Positions 12,612 to 34,016 of a stretch of DNA of 38,409 bases are shown here, in pieces. The DNA is taken from positions 1 through 38,409 of the forward strand of contig WFQE01000034.1 in assembly GCA_015487165.1 (NCBI GenBank), written 5' to 3'. The notes under the pieces are model-generated. The model saw nothing but the letters and a program-made list of their open reading frames with translations, made no database searches and had not been told where the DNA came from. Made by a program: the position numbers and the translations under genes. Positions within the stretch are counted from its first letter, which is position 1; the number at the start of each line of letters is the position of its first letter. This stretch comes from Paracoccaceae bacterium (GTDB lineage Bacteria > Pseudomonadota > Alphaproteobacteria > Rhodobacterales > Rhodobacteraceae).

Positions 12612-13142
12612 TCAGTTTTGCTTGTGTGTTAGGATATTCCGCCCAAGCGCGGCAAGGGCGGATCTGAGATTGTCATCGCCGACATCGCCCACGACCTTTT
12701 CCACCTCGGCCACCTTTTGGGGGTCTGGCGCTGGTCGGGGCTTGTGGTCGAAAGATGCCGGAGCTTCGGAAAAGCCGGTTTCGGCGGTCTGCGTGATTCT
12801 GATTCTGGATATGGCCGCATAGCCATAACAGGCGTTTACCTTGTCCTTTATGCGCGGCAGATCGGCCTGCAACAGGGGGGCGTTGGCGCCGTTTGTCAGA
12901 ATGGTCAGCGTGGCGCCGATGCCCTGTTGGCCATAGCTGACCTTTACCGGACGCGAGACATCGGCCAACGCATCGCCAACGATTTCGCGCCAATGTGTCA
13001 ACAGGCGGGTTTCAACAAAGCCCCGTTTTTCGCTGGCCGTTCGGATATGTTGTTGAAGAATCCCGCCGGTCTGCATAAAGCCACGCGCCGCACGGCCACC
13101 CTTTCCCGCTTTCGAATGTATCTTTTGCGCGGTCATTTGCAC
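12612..13142 (-). CDS. DUF721 (DciA-like) protein
   Basis: 176 residues. The N-terminal part matches DUF721: GGILQQHIRTASEKRGFVETRLLTHWREIVGDALADVSRPV, of which the core WREIVGDALADVSRPV is the family's most recognisable stretch, followed by a KH-like beta segment (GATLTILTNGANAPLLQ). The C-terminal 60 residues are proline/acidic and variable. DUF721 includes DciA, the helicase loader that replaces DnaC in many bacteria, so a role in bringing DnaB to DNA is possible; alphaproteobacterial members vary in length and this has not been shown here. Divergent from mutY across 77 bp and followed on the same strand by dsbA. Confidence 0.85.
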   Translation of the reverse strand: MQMTAQKIHSKAGKGGRAARGFMQTGGILQQHIRTASEKRGFVETRLLTHWREIVGDALADVSRPVKVSYGQQGIGATLTILTNGANAPLLQADLPRIKDKVNACYGYAAISRIRITQTAETGFSEAPASFDHKPRPAPDPQKVAEVEKVVGDVGDDNLRSALAALGRNILTHKQN

Positions 13143-16406: not shown

Positions 16407-17591
16407 TCAGACCCCCACGTCGATCAGCGCCCTGGCAAGGATCGGCACGGTGGTTTCATTGAGTCCGGCAATGTTGATGCGGCTGTCGCCCACCATGTAG
16501 ATACCATGCTTTTCGCGCAGCTCGACCACCTGTTCGGGCGTGGCCCCCATGCGCGAGAACATGCCCCGGTGCTGGGCGATAAAGGCAAAGCGGTCTGATC
16601 CCGAAAGGCGCTGCAATTCATCTGCAAGTTGCTGACGAATCGTCAACATGCCCAGGCGCACATCTTCAAGTTCGGCCATCCAGTCGGCGCGCAACTCGTC
16701 GTCTGACAGGATGATCGTCACCAGACGCGCGCCGTGGTCGGGTGGGAAGGAAAAGTTCTGCCGGTTCAGATGCGCAAGATTGCCCTGCGTTGTTGCGCGC
16801 GTGTCTGCATCGGGCGCAATCGCCAGGACGATGCCGGTGCGTTCGCGGTAGACGCCGAAATTCTTGGAACAGCTTGCCGCGATCAGCATTTCGGGCATGC
16901 GTCCGGCCAACATCCGTACGGCGGCGGCGTCCTGGTCCAGCCCGTCGCCAAAGCCTTGATAGGCGATGTCGATAAACGGAATGGCGCCACGTTCCAGCAG
17001 GACGTCGGCGACCTGTTCCCACTGGGTCTGGTTCAGGTTGGCGCCGGTGGGGTTGTGGCAGCAGCCATGCAGCAGAACCACATCGCCCGCCTTGACGGTT
17101 TTCAGGTCGGCCAGCATACCCTCGAAATCAACCGCGCGCGAGGTGTTGTCGAAATAGCGATACTCGGCCATCTTCATGCCGAGATGGCGGATGATCGAGG
17201 GGTGGTTCGGCCAAGTGGGGGCCGACAGCCAGACGGTGGCGTCGGGGCCGGCCATCTTGATGAGTTCCAGCACCATGTGGATCGCGCCGGTGCCGCCGGG
17301 TGTTGCCGCTGCGGCCACACGCTCGGGTGCAACCGAATCGGCCAGTACCAGTTCGCGCATCACCTTGTGAAAGCCCGCATCACCCGCCAGCGCGGTATAG
17401 GCCTTGGTGGTTTCGCTTTCCCACAGACGCTTTTCCGCGGCCTTTACGGCGCGCATGATCGGGGTCACGCCCTGGGCGTTCTTGTACACGCCAACGCCAA
17501 GGTCGATCTTGGTGTCGCGCGGGTCTTCGCGATACATCTGCATAAGTTGCAGGATCTTGTCGGGCGGTTGTTGTTGCAGATTTTCCAGCAT
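16407..17591 (-). CDS. Aromatic/aspartate aminotransferase, PLP fold type I
   Basis: 394 residues. It transfers an amino group between aspartate or aromatic amino acids and 2-oxoglutarate. Sequence marks: DLGVGVYKNAQG at the N-terminus, the cofactor residues in HGCCHNPTGANL (Asn near 183), IDIAYQGFG with Asp208 and Tyr211, and the PLP-binding lysine in SCSKNFGVYRER (Lys243). This is the subgroup Ia (E. coli AspC/TyrB) pattern rather than the Ib pattern common in other bacteria. AspC and TyrB cannot be separated reliably by eye. The sulfurtransferase gene starts upstream on the same strand, 23 bases away; both could contribute to cysteine breakdown, since aspartate aminotransferases convert cysteine to 3-mercaptopyruvate, the substrate of that enzyme. 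Confidence 0.93.
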   Translation of the reverse strand: MLENLQQQPPDKILQLMQMYREDPRDTKIDLGVGVYKNAQGVTPIMRAVKAAEKRLWESETTKAYTALAGDAGFHKVMRELVLADSVAPERVAAAATPGGTGAIHMVLELIKMAGPDATVWLSAPTWPNHPSIIRHLGMKMAEYRYFDNTSRAVDFEGMLADLKTVKAGDVVLLHGCCHNPTGANLNQTQWEQVADVLLERGAIPFIDIAYQGFGDGLDQDAAAVRMLAGRMPEMLIAASCSKNFGVYRERTGIVLAIAPDADTRATTQGNLAHLNRQNFSFPPDHGARLVTIILSDDELRADWMAELEDVRLGMLTIRQQLADELQRLSGSDRFAFIAQHRGMFSRMGATPEQVVELREKHGIYMVGDSRINIAGLNETTVPILARALIDVGV

Positions 17592-26170: not shown

Positions 26171-26779
26171 TCAGTATTCGACACCGATCTGTGCCTTGAT
26201 GCCCGAGCGGAACGGATGTTTCACAAGTTCCATTTCGGTCACAAGATCGGCAATTTCAATGAGTTCCGGTGCCGCATTGCGCCCGGTCAGCACGACATGG
26301 GTCATTTCCGGTTTTTCCGTGGTCAGGAATTCGACCACATCATTGATATCGACATAGCCATAGCGAATGGCGATGTTGATTTCGTCCAGCAGCACCATCC
26401 GGTTTTCGGGGTCGCGGATCAGTTCCTGCGCCTTGCGCCACGCGGCCTGCGCCATTTCGGTATCGCGGGTCTTGTCCTGGGTTTCCCAGGTAAAGCCCTC
26501 GCCCATCGTATGAAATTCGCAGATGTCGCTGAATTTCGACAGGATCAGATCGCGTTCGCCGGTGGACATGCCGCCCTTGATGAATTGCACGACACCACAT
26601 CGCATGTCATGGGCAATGCAGCGAAAGATCATGCCGAAAGCAGCCGAGGATTTTCCCTTGCCCTTGCCGGTATGCACGATGATCAGGCCCTTTTCCCCGG
26701 TCTTGGTGGCCATGATCTTGTCACGCGCGGCCTTTTTCTTGGCCATCTTCATTGCGTGGCGGTCGGTGTCGTCGGTCAT
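26171..26779 (-). CDS. cobO: Cob(I)yrinic acid a,c-diamide adenosyltransferase
   Basis: 202 residues. Transfers the 5'-deoxyadenosyl group of ATP to the cobalt of corrinoids. The characteristic P-loop is TGKGKGKSSAAFG (about 37-49); VVQFIKGGMSTGE, LDEINIAIRYGY and VVLTGRNAAPELIEIAD follow, all typical of CobA/CobO. Start at 26779 is preceded by AGAGGG six bases upstream, preferred over the longer frame from 26830. It follows cobN on the same strand, but a 480-bp region with a terminator lies between, so it has its own promoter or is reached by read-through. Followed closely by the FMN reductase gene. Confidence 0.96.
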   Translation of the reverse strand: MTDDTDRHAMKMAKKKAARDKIMATKTGEKGLIIVHTGKGKGKSSAAFGMIFRCIAHDMRCGVVQFIKGGMSTGERDLILSKFSDICEFHTMGEGFTWETQDKTRDTEMAQAAWRKAQELIRDPENRMVLLDEINIAIRYGYVDINDVVEFLTTEKPEMTHVVLTGRNAAPELIEIADLVTEMELVKHPFRSGIKAQIGVEY

Positions 26780-26881: not shown

Positions 26882-26909
26882 CAGAATTGTTGCAAGGGGG
26901 CAAATTCTG
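26882..26909. repeat. Hairpin upstream of cobO
   Basis: CAGAAT-tg-TTGC (26882-26893) pairs with GCAA-ATTCTG (26900-26909) around a 6-base loop AAGGGG: ten pairs with a 2-base bulge. It lies 12 bases from the terminator T-run and about 100 bases before the cobO start. No T-run follows on either strand. It may belong to a cobO leader. Confidence 0.45.
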
Positions 26910-26920
26910 TGTAAACTCGC

Positions 26921-26949
26921 AAAAAAAGAGGGGGACCCGAAGGCCCCCC
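26921..26949 (-). terminator. Strong intrinsic terminator with UUCG loop
   Basis: Read leftward: GGGGG-CC-TTCG-GG-T-CCCCC (26948-26930; one bulged base), then TC and seven T residues (26927-26921). The UUCG tetraloop, GC-rich stem and long T-run make it the clearest terminator in the window. It ends the candidate small RNA that starts near 27156. Confidence 0.9.
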
Positions 26950-27156
26950 ATTGAAGTTCGGGGTCATAGGCCCCTCAGGGAAGATCTTTTCTGTCGGCGC
27001 GCCGCCCTTGATGCGCGAGGGAGATTCGACATTCGCAAGGGCGGTGCCGAGGGAGAACAGAACCCGACAGAAGCTAATCGAAACAGTCTTGGTGGCCGTG
27101 CGTGTCTATCCTTTGTTTTCTGGCGCCTTGATTCTTGCGCCGGTCAACTTGTCTGT
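26922..27156 (-). ncRNA. Candidate FnrL-dependent small RNA, about 235 nt
   Basis: From the predicted start at 27156 (A) to the terminator at 26921 no convincing coding frame exists on the minus strand: the longest frame lacks a usable start codon. The sequence folds well by eye: GGCGC/GCGCC (27141-27137 with 27126-27122); TTCTGTCGG (27072-27064) with CCGACAGAA (26997-26989), nine perfect pairs; nested inside it CCGCCCTTG (27044-27036) with CAAGGGCGG (27010-27002), nine perfect pairs; then GGGG/CCCC and the UUCG terminator. The 9-mer TCTCCCTCG occurs twice, in the inner loop (27024-27016) and in the internal loop (27056-27048). C-rich unpaired segments of this type can bind Shine-Dalgarno sequences. 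I do not recognise the RNA family. Confidence 0.65.
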
Positions 27157-27162
27157 GTGAAC

Positions 27163-27204
27163 GTATAGCCGCGATTCACGACCCATATCTTTGACTTAAG
27201 TCAA
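27163..27204 (-). promoter_or_regulatory. Class II FnrL/Dnr-type promoter reading leftward
   Basis: TTGACTTAAGTCAA at 27191-27204 is a perfect 14-bp palindrome of the FNR-family form TTGAC-N4-GTCAA. On the minus strand exactly 22 bases separate it from CTATAC (27168-27163), the spacing expected when the site is centred at -41.5 and the hexamer at -12 to -7. The predicted start is A at 27156. There is no gene to the right on the plus strand, so leftward action is the sensible reading. Which Crp/Fnr protein binds (FnrL, Dnr or another) is not decided by sequence. Confidence 0.72.
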
Positions 27205-27260: not shown

Positions 27261-30200
27261 TCAGCGAAATTTTTCCAGCGACAGCCGCGCGGAATTCGAT
27301 TTCGGGGTCCACAAGCCCTTGTCGATCGCTTCCAGCAGGCGCTGGGTGATTTCCTTCAGCGCCGGTTCATTGTGGTCTTCGATAAAGCGCCGGGTGTCTT
27401 CGTCTTCCAGGAATGCGGTATAGACCAGATCGAAATGGTGTGACTTGACGGCCCCGGTCGTGGCGGCAAAGGCAAACATGTAGTCCACCGTCGCGGCGAT
27501 TTCGAACGCGCCCTTGTAGCCGTGGCGCTTGACGCCTTCGATCCATTTCGGGTTGACCACGCGCGAGCGCACCACGCGGGCGATTTCCTGCTCCAGCGTG
27601 CGAATGACGGGGCGTTCGGGGCGCGAGTGGTCGTTGTGATAGATGGGGCGGTCGGTGCCTTGAAGGGTTGAAACGGCCGCCGCCGCGCCGCCTTCAAACT
27701 GGTAATAGTCGTCGCTGTCCAGCAGGTCGTGTTCGCGGTTGTCCTGATTCTGGACAATGGCCTCGACCTGGGAAAGCCGGGCCTCAAGTGCCTCGCGGGC
27801 ACGGGTGCCTTCATGTCCTGCACCATAAGCGTAAGAGCCCCATTCAAGATAGGCCTCGGCCAGGTCCGACTTGTCGCCCCAAAGACGCTCGTCGATCATC
27901 GCCTGCAAACCGGCCCCATAGGCGCCGGGCTTTGACCCGAACACCCTGTGCTGCCCCTGTTCGCCCTCGGTCCGAGCGCGCGCGGCGGCGGGGTTCATAT
28001 CGGGGGCCTCATCCAGCGCCATGACGGCACGCGCGGCGCTGTCGAACAGGTCGATCAGCTGGGGAAAGGCGTCGCGGAAAAAACCCGAGATCCGCAGGGT
28101 CACATCCACGCGTGGCCGGTCGAGAACCGAAAGCGGCAGGATCTCGAACCCCGTAACGCGGCGGCTGAAGCTGTCCCATGTCGGTTTCACCCCCATCAGG
28201 GCCAGCGCCTGGGCGATATCGTCGCCGCCCGTGCGCATGTTGGCAGTGCCCCAGGCGGTGATCAGCATGGCGCGCGGCCAGTCACCGTGGTCTTGCAGGT
28301 GGCGTTCTATCAAAAGGTTCGCCGATTTCCACCCCAGTGCCCAGGCGGTGGGGGTGGGCACGGCGCGGGTATCGACACTGTAGAAATTGCGCCCCGTGGG
28401 CAGAACGTCCAACCGCCCGCGCGTCGGCGCGCCCGAAGGGGCAGGGTCGATGAACCGCCCGTCCAGCGCGCGCAGCAGATTGGCCCCCTCATCAGGCCCG
28501 CAGGCCCGCAGGGTCGGCAGCACATGGTCAAAGGCCTGATCCAGAACCAACCGGGTCTGGGGCCAGTCGCCGGGATCGGCCCCATCCAGCAGGCGTGCCG
28601 CCAGCAGCTCCAGCCGTTCGACGGTGTCGCCGGCGCTGCGCCAGCGGTCGTCGGACAGATCGGCCAACACATCCGGGCGCGGCCCCTGCCACGGCGCTGC
28701 CATGTCGCAATCGAGCGGGTCGAATTTCAGCCCAAGATCGGCGGCCAGCGCCCGCTGTAACGAGGCATTTCCCCCCTTGCCATCACCCCGCGGCACCCGC
28801 AGCAGCGCCTGCAACAGGTCGCGCTCCAGCCTTCCTTTGGGCGATTGGCCAAAGATGTGCAGCCCATCGCGAATCTGCGCCTCTTTCAATTCGCACAGCC
28901 AGGAATCGAGCTTTGCCAGGTCGCTTTCCTCGTCGTGGCCCGAAAGCCCGGCATCCTGTGCAATACCCGTGGCCGAGGTCAGGGCCAGGATCTCGCCGCG
29001 CAGGTGGTTGATGCGGCGGGGGTCAACGCCGGCGGCCTCGTAATACTCGTCCACCAGCGATTCCAGATCGCGCAGCGGGCCATAGCTTTCGGCCCGTGTC
29101 AGGGGTGGTGTCAGATGGTCGATGATGACGGCCTGCGCGCGCCGCTTGGCCTGTGTGCCTTCGCCAGGGTCGTTGACGATGAAGGGGTAGATATGTGGCA
29201 GCGGGCCAAGGGCGGCCTCGGGGAAACATTCCTCGGACAGGGCCAGAGACTTGCCCGGCAGCCATTCCAGATTGCCATGCTTGCCCATATGCACGATGGC
29301 ATCGGCCCGGAACTGGTGGCGCAGCCAGAAATAAAAGGCAAGATAGTTATGCGGGGGCACCAGATCCGGCGAGTGATAGCTGTCGGTCGGGTAGATATTA
29401 TAGCCGCGTGCGGGCTGCACCCCGACCACCACATTGCCGAATTGCAGGACCGACAGCTTGAAACGCCCGCAATCGACCTCGCCACGCTGAAAGAAGGGGT
29501 CGCCTTCGGGCGGGCCCCAGCGCTCTTCGATGCGCGCGCGCAAATCTGCGGGCAGCTGGCCATAGTCGATCTGGTATTCCGCCAGCGAAAGATCGACGCC
29601 GCCTGTGCGCGAGAAACGGTCGGCCAGCCAGTTCGTTGGCCCCTCAAGGATCATCTGCATCAGGGCATCGCTGTCGTCGGGCGCGCCGTGCAGGCGATAG
29701 CCAGCCTCCTTCAGCAGTTTCAGCACATGAACGGTGGCGGCCGGCGTGTCCAGCCCGACGCCATTGGCAAGGCGGCCGTCCTTGTTGGGATAGTTTGCCA
29801 GCACCAGGGCAACCCTGCGATCCGCCGGGTTCTTGCGCCGCAGCGCCGCCCAGCCTGCGGCCAGACGCGCCACAAATTCAACGCGGTCCATTCGCGGCTG
29901 ATAGGATGCAATGGCGCATTGCGTTGCCTCGTCATACCAGGCCTGCCCCTTGAAGCTGATCGCGCGGGAAAGAATCCGCCCGTCAACCTCGGGCAGGGCG
30001 ACATTCATGGCGATATCGCGGGCCGACAGCCCGGAAAGCCCGTCATTCCAGCCCTCTTCGCTGCCCGATGACAGCACCACCTGAAAGACGGGGGCATCAT
30101 TGGCAGCCCCGCCTGCAAGCGGGTTGTGCGCGCCATCATCCCCCGCATGGGGCGTGCCAGTGGCAAAGCTGGTGCAGTTGAGGATCACATCCGGCGGGGC

Positions 30201-30968
30201 CTGTTCGAACAGCCCTTCCAGCGTTGCAACCGACAGCGGATCCTTCAGTGAGGCCACGAAAACCGGCAGTGGGTTCAACCCTTGCGCCATCAACGCATCA
30301 ACCAGCGCGTCGATGGGTGCCAGCCCTGCCCCCTGAACCAGCGCGCGATAAAAGACGACCGGAACCACAGGCGCGTTATCTTGCCAATGTGCGCGCAGCA
30401 CATCCATATCCGTGGAATCCGATCCCGGCCAGTACAGCCCGGATCTGAGCAACGGCCTGGCCGCGGGCGGGCGCTCGCCCTTGCCCAGCATGGCCTGACA
30501 CAACCGCAGGAAATTTGCGGCGTTCTCCGGCCCGCCCTCGACCAGATAGGCCCACAGCATTTCCCATTCATCACGCTGGATTGTTGACAGGCGCCAGAGT
30601 TCCTCATCCGGCTTGTCGTCGCCCGGCAGCAGGGCCAGCCTGACACCGGCCTGCGCCAGCTGAATGGCATATTGCTCGGCCCCGTATTTCCAGTAACCAA
30701 GCCCACCCAGCAGACGGATCACCACCAGCCGCGCATGTCGCGCACATTGATCTATATGCAGATCCACCGACATCGGATGCGACAGATGGGTGAGATTGGC
30801 CAGACGCAGGCCGGGGGCCTTTTCCCCCAGCGTCGAGCGCGCCTGCGCCAGCGCGGCCAGCTCGGTATCAGCGGCCGAAATCACCACCACATCGGCAGGG
30901 CTCTGGTTCAGGTCGACGGGTTCCGAGCCGTCGCTGACCATGCCGGGCTGTGCCGCAAGCAGATGCAT
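27261..30968 (-). CDS. cobN: Cobaltochelatase subunit CobN
   Basis: 1235 residues, close to the family's usual 1250. The large subunit of the ATP-dependent aerobic cobaltochelatase (with CobS and CobT, which are not in this window) inserts Co2+ into hydrogenobyrinic acid a,c-diamide. Family stretches include RLLGGLGYWKYG near the N-terminus, LVLANYPNKDGRLANGVGLD in the middle, HMGKHGNLEWLPGKSLALS, PFIVNDPGEGTQAKRRAQAV and, near the C-terminus, GGAAAAVSTLQGTD and WIEGVKRHGYKGAFEIAATVDYM (its core HGYKGAFEIA is diagnostic). Start at 30968 is chosen: GGAGG lies five bases before it, and the 63-codon upstream extension of the open frame runs through the intergenic inverted repeat and into the GNAT gene. 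Confidence 0.97.
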   Translation of the reverse strand: MHLLAAQPGMVSDGSEPVDLNQSPADVVVISAADTELAALAQARSTLGEKAPGLRLANLTHLSHPMSVDLHIDQCARHARLVVIRLLGGLGYWKYGAEQYAIQLAQAGVRLALLPGDDKPDEELWRLSTIQRDEWEMLWAYLVEGGPENAANFLRLCQAMLGKGERPPAARPLLRSGLYWPGSDSTDMDVLRAHWQDNAPVVPVVFYRALVQGAGLAPIDALVDALMAQGLNPLPVFVASLKDPLSVATLEGLFEQAPPDVILNCTSFATGTPHAGDDGAHNPLAGGAANDAPVFQVVLSSGSEEGWNDGLSGLSARDIAMNVALPEVDGRILSRAISFKGQAWYDEATQCAIASYQPRMDRVEFVARLAAGWAALRRKNPADRRVALVLANYPNKDGRLANGVGLDTPAATVHVLKLLKEAGYRLHGAPDDSDALMQMILEGPTNWLADRFSRTGGVDLSLAEYQIDYGQLPADLRARIEERWGPPEGDPFFQRGEVDCGRFKLSVLQFGNVVVGVQPARGYNIYPTDSYHSPDLVPPHNYLAFYFWLRHQFRADAIVHMGKHGNLEWLPGKSLALSEECFPEAALGPLPHIYPFIVNDPGEGTQAKRRAQAVIIDHLTPPLTRAESYGPLRDLESLVDEYYEAAGVDPRRINHLRGEILALTSATGIAQDAGLSGHDEESDLAKLDSWLCELKEAQIRDGLHIFGQSPKGRLERDLLQALLRVPRGDGKGGNASLQRALAADLGLKFDPLDCDMAAPWQGPRPDVLADLSDDRWRSAGDTVERLELLAARLLDGADPGDWPQTRLVLDQAFDHVLPTLRACGPDEGANLLRALDGRFIDPAPSGAPTRGRLDVLPTGRNFYSVDTRAVPTPTAWALGWKSANLLIERHLQDHGDWPRAMLITAWGTANMRTGGDDIAQALALMGVKPTWDSFSRRVTGFEILPLSVLDRPRVDVTLRISGFFRDAFPQLIDLFDSAARAVMALDEAPDMNPAAARARTEGEQGQHRVFGSKPGAYGAGLQAMIDERLWGDKSDLAEAYLEWGSYAYGAGHEGTRAREALEARLSQVEAIVQNQDNREHDLLDSDDYYQFEGGAAAAVSTLQGTDRPIYHNDHSRPERPVIRTLEQEIARVVRSRVVNPKWIEGVKRHGYKGAFEIAATVDYMFAFAATTGAVKSHHFDLVYTAFLEDEDTRRFIEDHNEPALKEITQRLLEAIDKGLWTPKSNSARLSLEKFR

Positions 30969-30985
30969 CAATGCCTCCGCGGGGT

Positions 30986-31062
30986 TTCTTCTTTGTTCAA
31001 ATACTCGCTTGCACCGCGCTGGCCTAACGCGCCTCCGGCGGGAGTATTTGTGCAAAGAAGAA
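30986..31062. repeat. Long imperfect inverted repeat between the GNAT gene and cobN
   Basis: The 21-base arms at 30986-31006 and 31042-31062 are complementary at 19 of 21 positions (left arm ends CAAATACTC, right arm begins GAGTATTTG and ends CAAAGAAGAA). The 35-base centre contains the smaller inverted element CGCCTCCGGCG. Elements with GAGTATTT and AAGAAG arms are frequent between genes in Rhodobacteraceae genomes. It lies inside the cob operon, only 18 bases before the cobN start, so it may act on RNA stability or termination within the operon. Confidence 0.75.
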
Positions 31063-31071
31063 GCCGGATGC

Positions 31072-31530
31072 TCACAATTCCTTCTCCATGAAGATGCTGC
31101 GCGGGTCCTTGCGGTATTCGCCGAAGGGCGCGCATTCGCGGTATCCGTGGCTGGCATAAAGTCGCCGTGCCGCTGTCAGCGTGTCGCCGGTTTCAAGGCG
31201 CAGGATGGTCAGCCCCTTGTCGCGCGCCGCCTGTTCAAGCCTTTCCAGCAGGCGCGAGCCGATTCTGCCGCCGCGTCGGGCGGGGTCGACGAACATGGAC
31301 TTGATCTCGCCATATCCGTCTTTCAGCACCAGCGCGCCGCAGCCTGCGACATGGCCGTCGAGCTGTGCCAGAAAGAACAGCACACCGGGCGCGGACAGAT
31401 CGTCGGCGGTCATGTAGTGGTTCGATTCCGACGGAAACAGCGCATCCATCAGGGCGTGGCTGGCTTTCAGCAGGGCCTGCGCCTCGGGGGCCCTGGGGTC
31501 GGCGGGGGATATCTCGACGCTGCGGCTCAT
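31072..31530 (-). CDS. GNAT-family N-acetyltransferase
   Basis: 152 residues. The acetyl-CoA binding motif is VDPARRGGRIGSRLLERLE (R/Q-x-x-G-x-G/A form), preceded by the beta strand GYGEIKSMFV and followed by LRLETGDTLTAARRLYASHGY, an arrangement close to that of PhnO/YafP-like acetyltransferases. The substrate is unknown. Its ATG overlaps the cobW stop (ATGA), so it is translationally coupled to cobW and belongs to the cobalamin operon, though no GNAT enzyme is a known part of the pathway. Then follows the inverted repeat before cobN. Confidence 0.9.
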   Translation of the reverse strand: MSRSVEISPADPRAPEAQALLKASHALMDALFPSESNHYMTADDLSAPGVLFFLAQLDGHVAGCGALVLKDGYGEIKSMFVDPARRGGRIGSRLLERLEQAARDKGLTILRLETGDTLTAARRLYASHGYRECAPFGEYRKDPRSIFMEKEL

Positions 31531-33655: not shown

Positions 33656-33663
33656 ATATTGGG

Positions 33664-33874
33664 TTTTGCGTTGCGCAGGGCTGGTCTCCTGGCTTGCGGG
33701 TCGTTGCGCTTCGCCGCCTTCCCGGGTCGGTTGGCCCAGTGGCATATTGGCGGGCGCTCTCCGCATACAGTCGCGGGGGCGGCTGCGGCTTTGGGCCCCT
33801 CTTTGGGTCATCCCCTACCGCATTCCCATTTGATCCCCGGCCGCTTGGCGGCTGATGGGGAACCTTGCGCATTC
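33664..33874 (-). promoter_or_regulatory. Cobalamin (B12) riboswitch
   Basis: All conserved blocks of the class are present in order on the minus strand: GGGAATGCGGT (33827-33817), GCCGCCCCCGCGACTGT (about 33783-33767), the B12 box GCCACTG (33743-33737), CCCGGGAAGGC (about 33724-33714), and AGCCAGGAGACC (33694-33683) closing toward GCGCAAC, which can pair with the 5' GCGC (about 33872-33869) as P1. It controls the cbtB-cbtA-cobW-GNAT-cobN operon: bound adenosylcobalamin should reduce expression. Outer limits are approximate. Confidence 0.93.
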
Positions 33875-34016
33875 TTATTGGCAGCAAACAGGCCGTCCGG
33901 TCAAGGCATCATGCGACCCCGGCGCACGCGATTGCGACGTTGCGTGCCGGGGGTGGCGGAGCGGCGAAAAAGGGGGCAGTGTCCTGATCGAACCCTTTCA
34001 AGGCGGCTGTAACATC

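Follow-up and report, generated by a model that had tools for sequence, protein, structure and literature searches.

The window, that is the whole stretch of 38,409 nucleotides analysed here, carries cobalamin genes, among which cobN and cobO follow each other on the minus strand. Between the two, a predicted small RNA gene with its own promoter and terminator was located (Table 1). A preliminary description of this DNA had pointed to a TTGAC-N4-GTCAA palindrome, a CTATAC element at the class II distance of 22 bases with an A at the expected start, and a UUCG-loop terminator with seven T residues, and all of these signals were found at their places, the palindrome being a perfect dyad and the terminator being recovered independently by a terminator scan. 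The proposed lack of a usable ORF was also confirmed. Indeed, closed ORFs on the sense strand of the predicted RNA do not exceed 24 aa, a length without counterpart in the homologs, and on the plus strand an ORF of 93 aa starting with TTG (26887–27168) is not kept as a single frame in two close relatives, G009 and G008. A cobalamin riboswitch, with the same orientation as the cobalamin genes, was the sole element of the window to reach an Rfam gathering score, and no match to it was found within the RNA segment.

Table 1. Position of the genes and features at the cobN–cobO locus, and of the related modules 3' of uspA
Feature	Position	Strand	Remarks
cobalamin riboswitch (RF00174)	33662-33882	minus	114.1 bits
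cobN	27261-31157	minus	upstream gene, outside the RNA gene; TIGR02257, 1633.6 bits
FNR-type box TTGACTTAAGTCAA	27204-27191	minus	perfect 14-base dyad
-10 element CTATAC	27168-27163	minus	22 nt past the box, class II spacing
candidate start A	27156	minus	putative 5' end
predicted small RNA, about 236 nt	26921-27156	minus	from box-to-start offset and terminator
outer 9-bp stem, TTCTGTCGG / CCGACAGAA	27072-27064 / 26997-26989	minus	5' arm / 3' arm; G000, G009 and G008 only
C-rich stretch TTCTCCCTCGG	27047-27057	minus	accessory, anti-Shine-Dalgarno-like; also in G009, identical in G008
inner 9-bp stem, CCGCCCTTG / CAAGGGCGG	27044-27036 / 27010-27002	minus	5' arm / 3' arm; two pairs lost in G008
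second C-rich stretch TCTCCCTCG	27016-27024	minus	also in G009
seed CTTCCCTGA (anti-Shine-Dalgarno)	26975-26983	minus	invariant in 6/6 homologs and in the uspA 3'UTR module
hairpin GGGG-CCTATGA-CCCC	26960-26974	minus	after the seed; no two-sided changes in the helix
Rho-independent terminator, UUCG loop, seven T	26921-26949	minus	stem 26949-26930; T run 26927-26921
cobO	26171-26779	minus	downstream gene, outside the RNA gene; NF004637, 277.4 bits; start codon by eye
uspA 3'UTR module L041	G004:C51:77588-77651
uspA 3'UTR module L054	G006:C64:23844-23911
uspA 3'UTR module L051	G003:C145:733-799

Conservation of the unit within the genus

The genus set was made of ten genomes, the query (G000) included, of which G001 and G003 are 77% and 83% complete. 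By DNA search the segment was retrieved in G009, with 94% identity, and in G008, with 83% identity across the 3' 177 nt. The covariance search over relatives, as suggested in the preliminary description, added weaker matches in G002, G004 and G007, the best of each lying 3' of cobN and having its own FNR box. The unit is present 3' of cobN in six of the ten genomes (G000, G009, G008, G007, G004 and G002), with one extra gene, GNAT-like by eye, interposed in G004, and is made in order of FNR box, -10 element, CUUCCCUGA, hairpin and covarying terminator. The predicted RNA ranges from 67 to 237 nt (235, 234, 237, 138, 108 and 67 nt, the shortest in G002, computed with one fixed box-to-start offset). 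In the other four genomes the stand-alone gene was not found by DNA, covariance and pattern searches, and no copy of either kind, stand-alone or in the uspA 3'UTR (see below), was seen in G005.

The box conforms to TTGA(C/T)N4(A/G)TCAA in all six genomes, where it lies 5' of the RNA core, and is followed at about 20–22 nt by -10-like TA-rich hexamers, the weakest being that of G004. Since TTGAN6TCAA is rare, with 17 occurrences over 1.65 Mb of the G008 genome, or one every 97 kb, its presence in front of the core in 6/6 genomes is not expected by chance. In the G008 stretches, the RNA gene itself being excluded, none of the seven CTTCCCTGA sites had a TTGAN6TCAA within 260 nt upstream.

The conserved part of the RNA corresponds to its 3' 60–70 nt, comprising the anti-Shine-Dalgarno stretch, the hairpin and the terminator. 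CUUCCCUGA, which is the complement of the Shine-Dalgarno-like UCAGGGAAG, is invariant in the six homologs, with varying flanks and length, and its mean unpaired probability of 0.61–0.86 across homologs indicates that the seed is mostly unpaired. In the core alignment of the six homologs, 97.2% of the pair cells are standard pairs, and eight cells changed on both sides were counted against a shuffled mean of 2.7, none of 500 shuffles reaching eight. The terminator is strong and covarying: two-sided changes occur in five of its eight stem pairs, with 100% of the cells paired, and five such pairs were reached by 7 of 500 shuffles.

That the signals came together by chance, or belong to a decayed promoter, and that no functional RNA exists would be in accordance with the weak folding of the full-length RNA (z -0.96, no better than shuffles, 37 of 200 being equally good) and with its occurrence, by the present searches, in one genus only. 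However, box, seed and terminator are kept in six genomes against strong drift elsewhere, and the terminator covaries, so that we consider this explanation very improbable. A real, stand-alone FNR-controlled small RNA gene is very probably present at this locus, as judged from the sequence comparison.

On the contrary, the two nested perfect 9-bp stems, which the preliminary description had taken as a defining feature, are present as described and yet confined to the three closest genomes (G000, G009 and G008); none were seen in the more distant homologs G007, G004 and G002, which keep the box and the terminator. Compensatory changes, looked for in the stems of the three genomes, amounted to one in the outer stem (T-A to C-G) and none in the inner, and covariation received no significant support, 175 of 500 shuffles being as good with three sequences. 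In the MFE folds of the query and G009 the inner stem forms with none of the nine outer pairs, and in that of G008 the outer stem forms. As the stems occur in three genomes only, the 5' part is regarded as accessory; the G002 gene consists approximately of seed, hairpin and terminator. This 5' part would represent a fast-evolving extension, to which the closest species have added C-rich stretches.

The gene 3' of the unit also varies, being cobO in G000, G009 and G008, a rhodanese-like gene in G007 (41.6 bits) and G002 (20.7 bits on a fragment, just below the cut-off), and a GFA gene in G004. In G006 and G003, cobO comes after cobN without such a unit between them, and in G005 it follows directly. 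A low-oxygen FNR-box promoter serving cobO, with terminator and nested stems acting as a conditional stop in a long 5'UTR, would fit the three genomes where the unit is followed by cobO in the same orientation; the nested stems could also permit alternative folds, and the MFE folds of G000 and G008 do differ. Nevertheless, box, seed and terminator stay where a rhodanese-like or GFA gene comes next, the terminator is strong and covarying, and G006 has cobO after cobN without any such element. The variable next gene thus indicates that the unit is not a cobO leader, and we hold this alternative to be improbable. Nor was the initially suggested link in function with the cobalamin cluster sustained, cobN being just the usual upstream neighbour.

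A separate observation regards loci L019, L025 and L033, where a structured-looking, conserved element (GCAGGCA...GCGGTA...TGAGCCTGA...GGCGA) precedes a terminator 3' of a gene ending in ...NYTLVRNGTCMKCNTCGGTSGCS, a C-terminus which we take to be that of the B12-dependent ribonucleotide reductase NrdJ. The element lies at about 1500–1630 in L025, at about 1530–1660 in L033 and on the minus strand in L019 and L023, with similar ones by eye in L021, L024, L026 and L004; no match at the element reached an Rfam gathering score in the six loci scanned (suhB, 22.7 bits, in L025).

Distribution in the family and the uspA 3'UTR module

The pattern CTTCCCTGA-N27-55-TTTTT matched in nine of the ten genus genomes, the reversed-pattern control giving three matches in two genomes. 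By eye the module is present in eight of them, twice in G004; both matches in G001 and one in G002 lack it and were discarded. Family-wide, the exact seed pattern was found in 37 of 394 genomes, and its reversed control in 11 of 394, many of the matches to the seed pattern having no hairpins by eye. A nucleotide search of the segment against 149 family genomes returned, besides the query genome, four weak matches; by eye, three of these fall in coding-like, unrelated sequence, and the fourth is a similar terminator. Matches of the first covariance model (R1) rested mainly on sequence, and those elsewhere in the family were inspected and not accepted as homologs. A second model (R2), built on the shorter core, gave many terminator-like matches in 394 family genomes (196 genomes at E up to 0.05); among 30 loci inspected, besides the query (L068) and G007 (L069), only L073 shows the exact seed with the hairpin, and the rest were not counted. 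When run on 83 loci (1.61 Mb, nearly all G008 stretches plus the cobN locus), R2 found the known copy only. The seed module is not of wide occurrence among the family genomes searched.

L073 (G380:C1:1527766-1527830) belongs to another genus and has the seed-hairpin-terminator module 3' of the stop of a LysR-type gene. Similar elements with altered seeds were noticed in L071 and L072, their upstream coding sequence being related by eye to that of L073.

Named cobN loci were also checked, up to 1500 nt after cobN, some ending at a contig edge. The best 80 of a longer list are 70–80% identical over the CobN C-terminal part and bear labels such as Amylibacter, Marinosulfonomonas and Rhodobacteraceae; among these 80, box and seed occur together only in L109 (Rhodobacteraceae bacterium isolate MAG_49), which is probably the same record as G004. 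FNR boxes after cobN in L119 and L126 (both 444 nt after the stop) and in L134 (600 nt) precede a protein gene, not an RNA. The gene, similar in these three Rhodobacterales loci, has a membrane-protein look, and the L119 protein matched no Pfam family at E up to 0.001. The RNA promoter of the genus may have descended from a promoter of this kind.

The CTTCCCTGA-hairpin-terminator module was also detected directly 3' of uspA (Usp family) in G003, G004 and G006. An FNR box, TTGATACAAATCAA, stands in front of uspA in G004 and G006, and in G003 box and module are on two contigs carrying overlapping uspA pieces. The box is present in G001, where the gene is at a contig edge with its 3'UTR out of view, and neither box nor module was seen at the uspA of G005. 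At E up to 1e-30, uspA of that type was found in G001, G003, G004, G005 and G006 and not in G000, G002, G007, G008 and G009; the stand-alone RNA occurs in all five genomes without this uspA and in one of the five with it (G004). Such exclusion is suggestive only, because two of the genomes, G001 and G003, are incomplete and genomes related to each other do not count as independent cases. The uspA 3'UTR module is probably a processed sibling of the RNA, and the two arrangements offer a natural comparison for the birth and swapping of regulatory RNAs. In a broader version, the RNA would be a genus-specific member of the FnrL regulon with a movable anti-Shine-Dalgarno module, stand-alone or in the uspA 3'UTR, the two forms having been swapped in evolution; it would complete a haem switch, with hemN turned on directly and hemF turned off via the RNA, and possibly limit the redox regulator PrrA/RegA. 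We regard this version as speculative and unlikely to hold as a whole.

FnrL and comparison with known RNAs

FnrL is encoded in the genome (G000:C299), the protein scoring 420.3 bits with the equivalog model NF045989 (cut-off 300) and having four N-terminal cysteines arranged as CxxC-x7-CxxC. The fnrL gene adjoins hemN (TIGR00538) and a uspA-type gene (PF00582, Usp family), with FNR boxes upstream of both. What stands of the FnrL-controlled small RNA first proposed, leaving aside the stems as defining feature and the cobalamin tie, is a stand-alone FNR-box gene with its own terminator in a genome having a true FnrL.

Several other CRP/FNR-type proteins are encoded in the genome, and the same RNA gene might be read by one of them, e.g., of the NO-sensing Dnr/NnrR type, in which case the signal would be nitrogen oxides and not oxygen. 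This would agree, apart from the availability of such proteins, with the half-sites TTGAC/GTCAA in place of TTGAT/ATCAA. On the other hand, among the homologs G007 has the box TTGATTCACATCAA and G004 the box TTGATCTGGATCAA, and the sibling uspA box has the form of the FnrL consensus. We consider another regulator unlikely, and infer that it is FnrL that reads the box.

In agreement with the statement that the RNA was not recognised as a described one, no Rfam gathering threshold was passed by the segment. The best match of the stretch was suhB (RF00519), with 24.2 bits and E 0.0082 for 501 bases, the gathering score being 41. Scores of 23.7, 19.7 and 22.4 were obtained for the G008 copy, the G009 copy and the G004 uspA 3'UTR, respectively, all below 41, and no suhB match was listed for the stand-alone copies of G007, G004 and G002 at E up to 5. 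The 10-mer core of the alpha-r8 RNAs is given as UUUCCUCCCU in the available excerpt of PMC12559287. That the 3' module is a diverged alpha-r8 (suhB/MmgR/SisA) RNA would account for suhB as top match and for the shared layout, a C-rich stretch and then a terminator; the score far under the gathering value, the three unmatched copies and the absence of that core at the seed, which reads AUCUUCCCUGAG, render it hardly probable. As a class, alpha-r8 (suhB RF00519, MmgR, SisA-D) resembles the window RNA in being an alphaproteobacterial sRNA in which a terminator follows a C-rich anti-Shine-Dalgarno stretch, and differs in the score (24.2 vs 41 bits), in the core, CUUCCCUGA being found here instead of UUUCCUCCCU, and in the FNR box promoter of the window RNA. 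The latter may work like alpha-r8, by its anti-Shine-Dalgarno stretch, though it is not filed there.

FNR-controlled sRNAs are well described in enterobacteria, and Sphingopyxis granuli is an alphaproteobacterium. The Rfam scan at E up to 10 gave six matches, none of them named FnrS, with a library that we take to include an FnrS family; the FnrS seed presumably differs from that of the window RNA. E. coli FnrS is described, in the available part of PMC8139620, as a stand-alone sRNA activated by FNR, which represses mRNAs of proteins dispensable without oxygen. The window RNA resembles it, from its sequence, in the FNR-type box at activating distance 5' of a stand-alone unit, and differs in length and neighbourhood, its targets being predicted ones. 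By analogy, it would work like E. coli FnrS while being apparently unrelated to it. An FnrS-named RNA is listed in S. granuli in the accessible portion of PMC13414033.

Other likenesses are by description and not by sequence. In Rhodobacter sphaeroides, belonging to a related group, PcrZ is a low-oxygen sRNA forming an incoherent loop with PrrA/FnrL (PMC8307010, PMC8139620, both in excerpt); it depends on PrrA, and FnrL control may be indirect (PMC8139620). The promoters of RSs0019 and RSs2461 of the same species are bound by FnrL in ChIP-seq; the excerpt of that study gives them no sequence similarity to FnrS and reports that the effect of FnrL on them could not be established there (PMC4263372). 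NarS-type sRNAs are FNR-linked RNAs derived from an mRNA 3' end, as far as the excerpt of PMC8139620 goes, and share with the proposed uspA sibling this 3'-end origin, host gene and organism being different.

Proposed mechanism and candidate targets

We consider it probable that the gene encodes a stand-alone trans-acting sRNA, which FnrL, or else an FNR-type relative close to it, switches on when oxygen is low, and which represses by pairing with Shine-Dalgarno regions, hemF being the best target guess. At low oxygen, FnrL or such a relative would activate transcription through the class II promoter, and the transcript would end at the gene's own terminator. The RNA would then act in trans, possibly making use of Hfq, through the mostly single-stranded CUUCCCUGA located just 5' of the hairpin and terminator; this seed would pair with Shine-Dalgarno regions holding (U)CAGGGAAG and block translation, thus reducing the target protein under oxygen limitation. 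Repression by Shine-Dalgarno pairing appears likely. FnrL would raise the oxygen-independent enzyme HemN directly and lower hemF via the RNA. If true, the decision whether haem is made by the oxygen-independent or the oxygen-dependent route would gain an RNA layer, and the locus provides a sequence-defined gene with a conserved seed and a testable target. The open-licence literature searched yielded neither an FnrL-controlled RNA beside cobN nor, for this group, a case of hemF being controlled by an RNA.

When the six genomes were searched for TCAGGGAAG-N1-13-ATG, 17 rows were obtained, two of them corresponding to the opposite strand of the RNA gene. Three matches were in G000 and one in G009, and the one in common is hemF (oxygen-dependent coproporphyrinogen oxidase, NF003727), where TCAGGGAAG-N7-ATG is found in both genomes and 10 nt of the leader are complementary to UCUUCCCUGA of the RNA. 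This exact 9-mer search gave no hemF match in G002, G004, G007 or G008. The G008 hemF leader reads ACAGGGAAG-N7-ATG, with an 8-nt complementarity (CAGGGAAG) at equal distance and with different flanks, so that three hemF leaders are complementary to the RNA; the G008 match is a weak confirmation, because orthologous Shine-Dalgarno sites share ancestry and are not independent. The remaining matches concern hpaR (TIGR02337) and one short frame in G000, PhyH, a TsuA/YeeE-like gene below cut-off and three similar genes in G004, cysE and one frame in G007, and short frames in G002 and G008.

In the 1.65 Mb of G008 sampled, where genes were called by a hexamer-score caller, CAGGGAAG occurs within 25 nt 5' of the start in 6 of 1415 genes. 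Besides hemF these are an ABC transporter, PIG-L, a cupredoxin-like, a BoxR-like and a PrrA/RegA gene, the last two being assigned from 150-aa pieces with scores below the curated cut-offs. By duplex energy among the 1415 genes prrA ranks 7 and hemF 39, many unrelated genes scoring better than hemF, and energy alone would therefore not single out hemF. As a target, hemF is our best guess from the sequences, a tentative one that we would expect to fail more often than to hold.

Some further leaders of G008 were noted. That of prrA/regA contains TCAGGGAAGA; in L291 (minus strand, about 12760–12800 in strand count) it reads UCAGGGAAGAAC, which matches the G008 RNA over 10 nt, and 12 nt of the leader (GUUCUUCCCUGA) would match the G007 RNA. 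Several genes with CAGGGAGGA-type leaders (L243–L334, e.g., L310:3434 on the plus strand and L255, minus, 10852) have a better duplex energy than hemF, and are possible further targets by sequence. Finally, the cupredoxin-like gene (L320, plus strand, about 17330–17362) has an FNR box, TTGACACATGTCAA, followed a few bases on by CAGGGAAG and then by the start.
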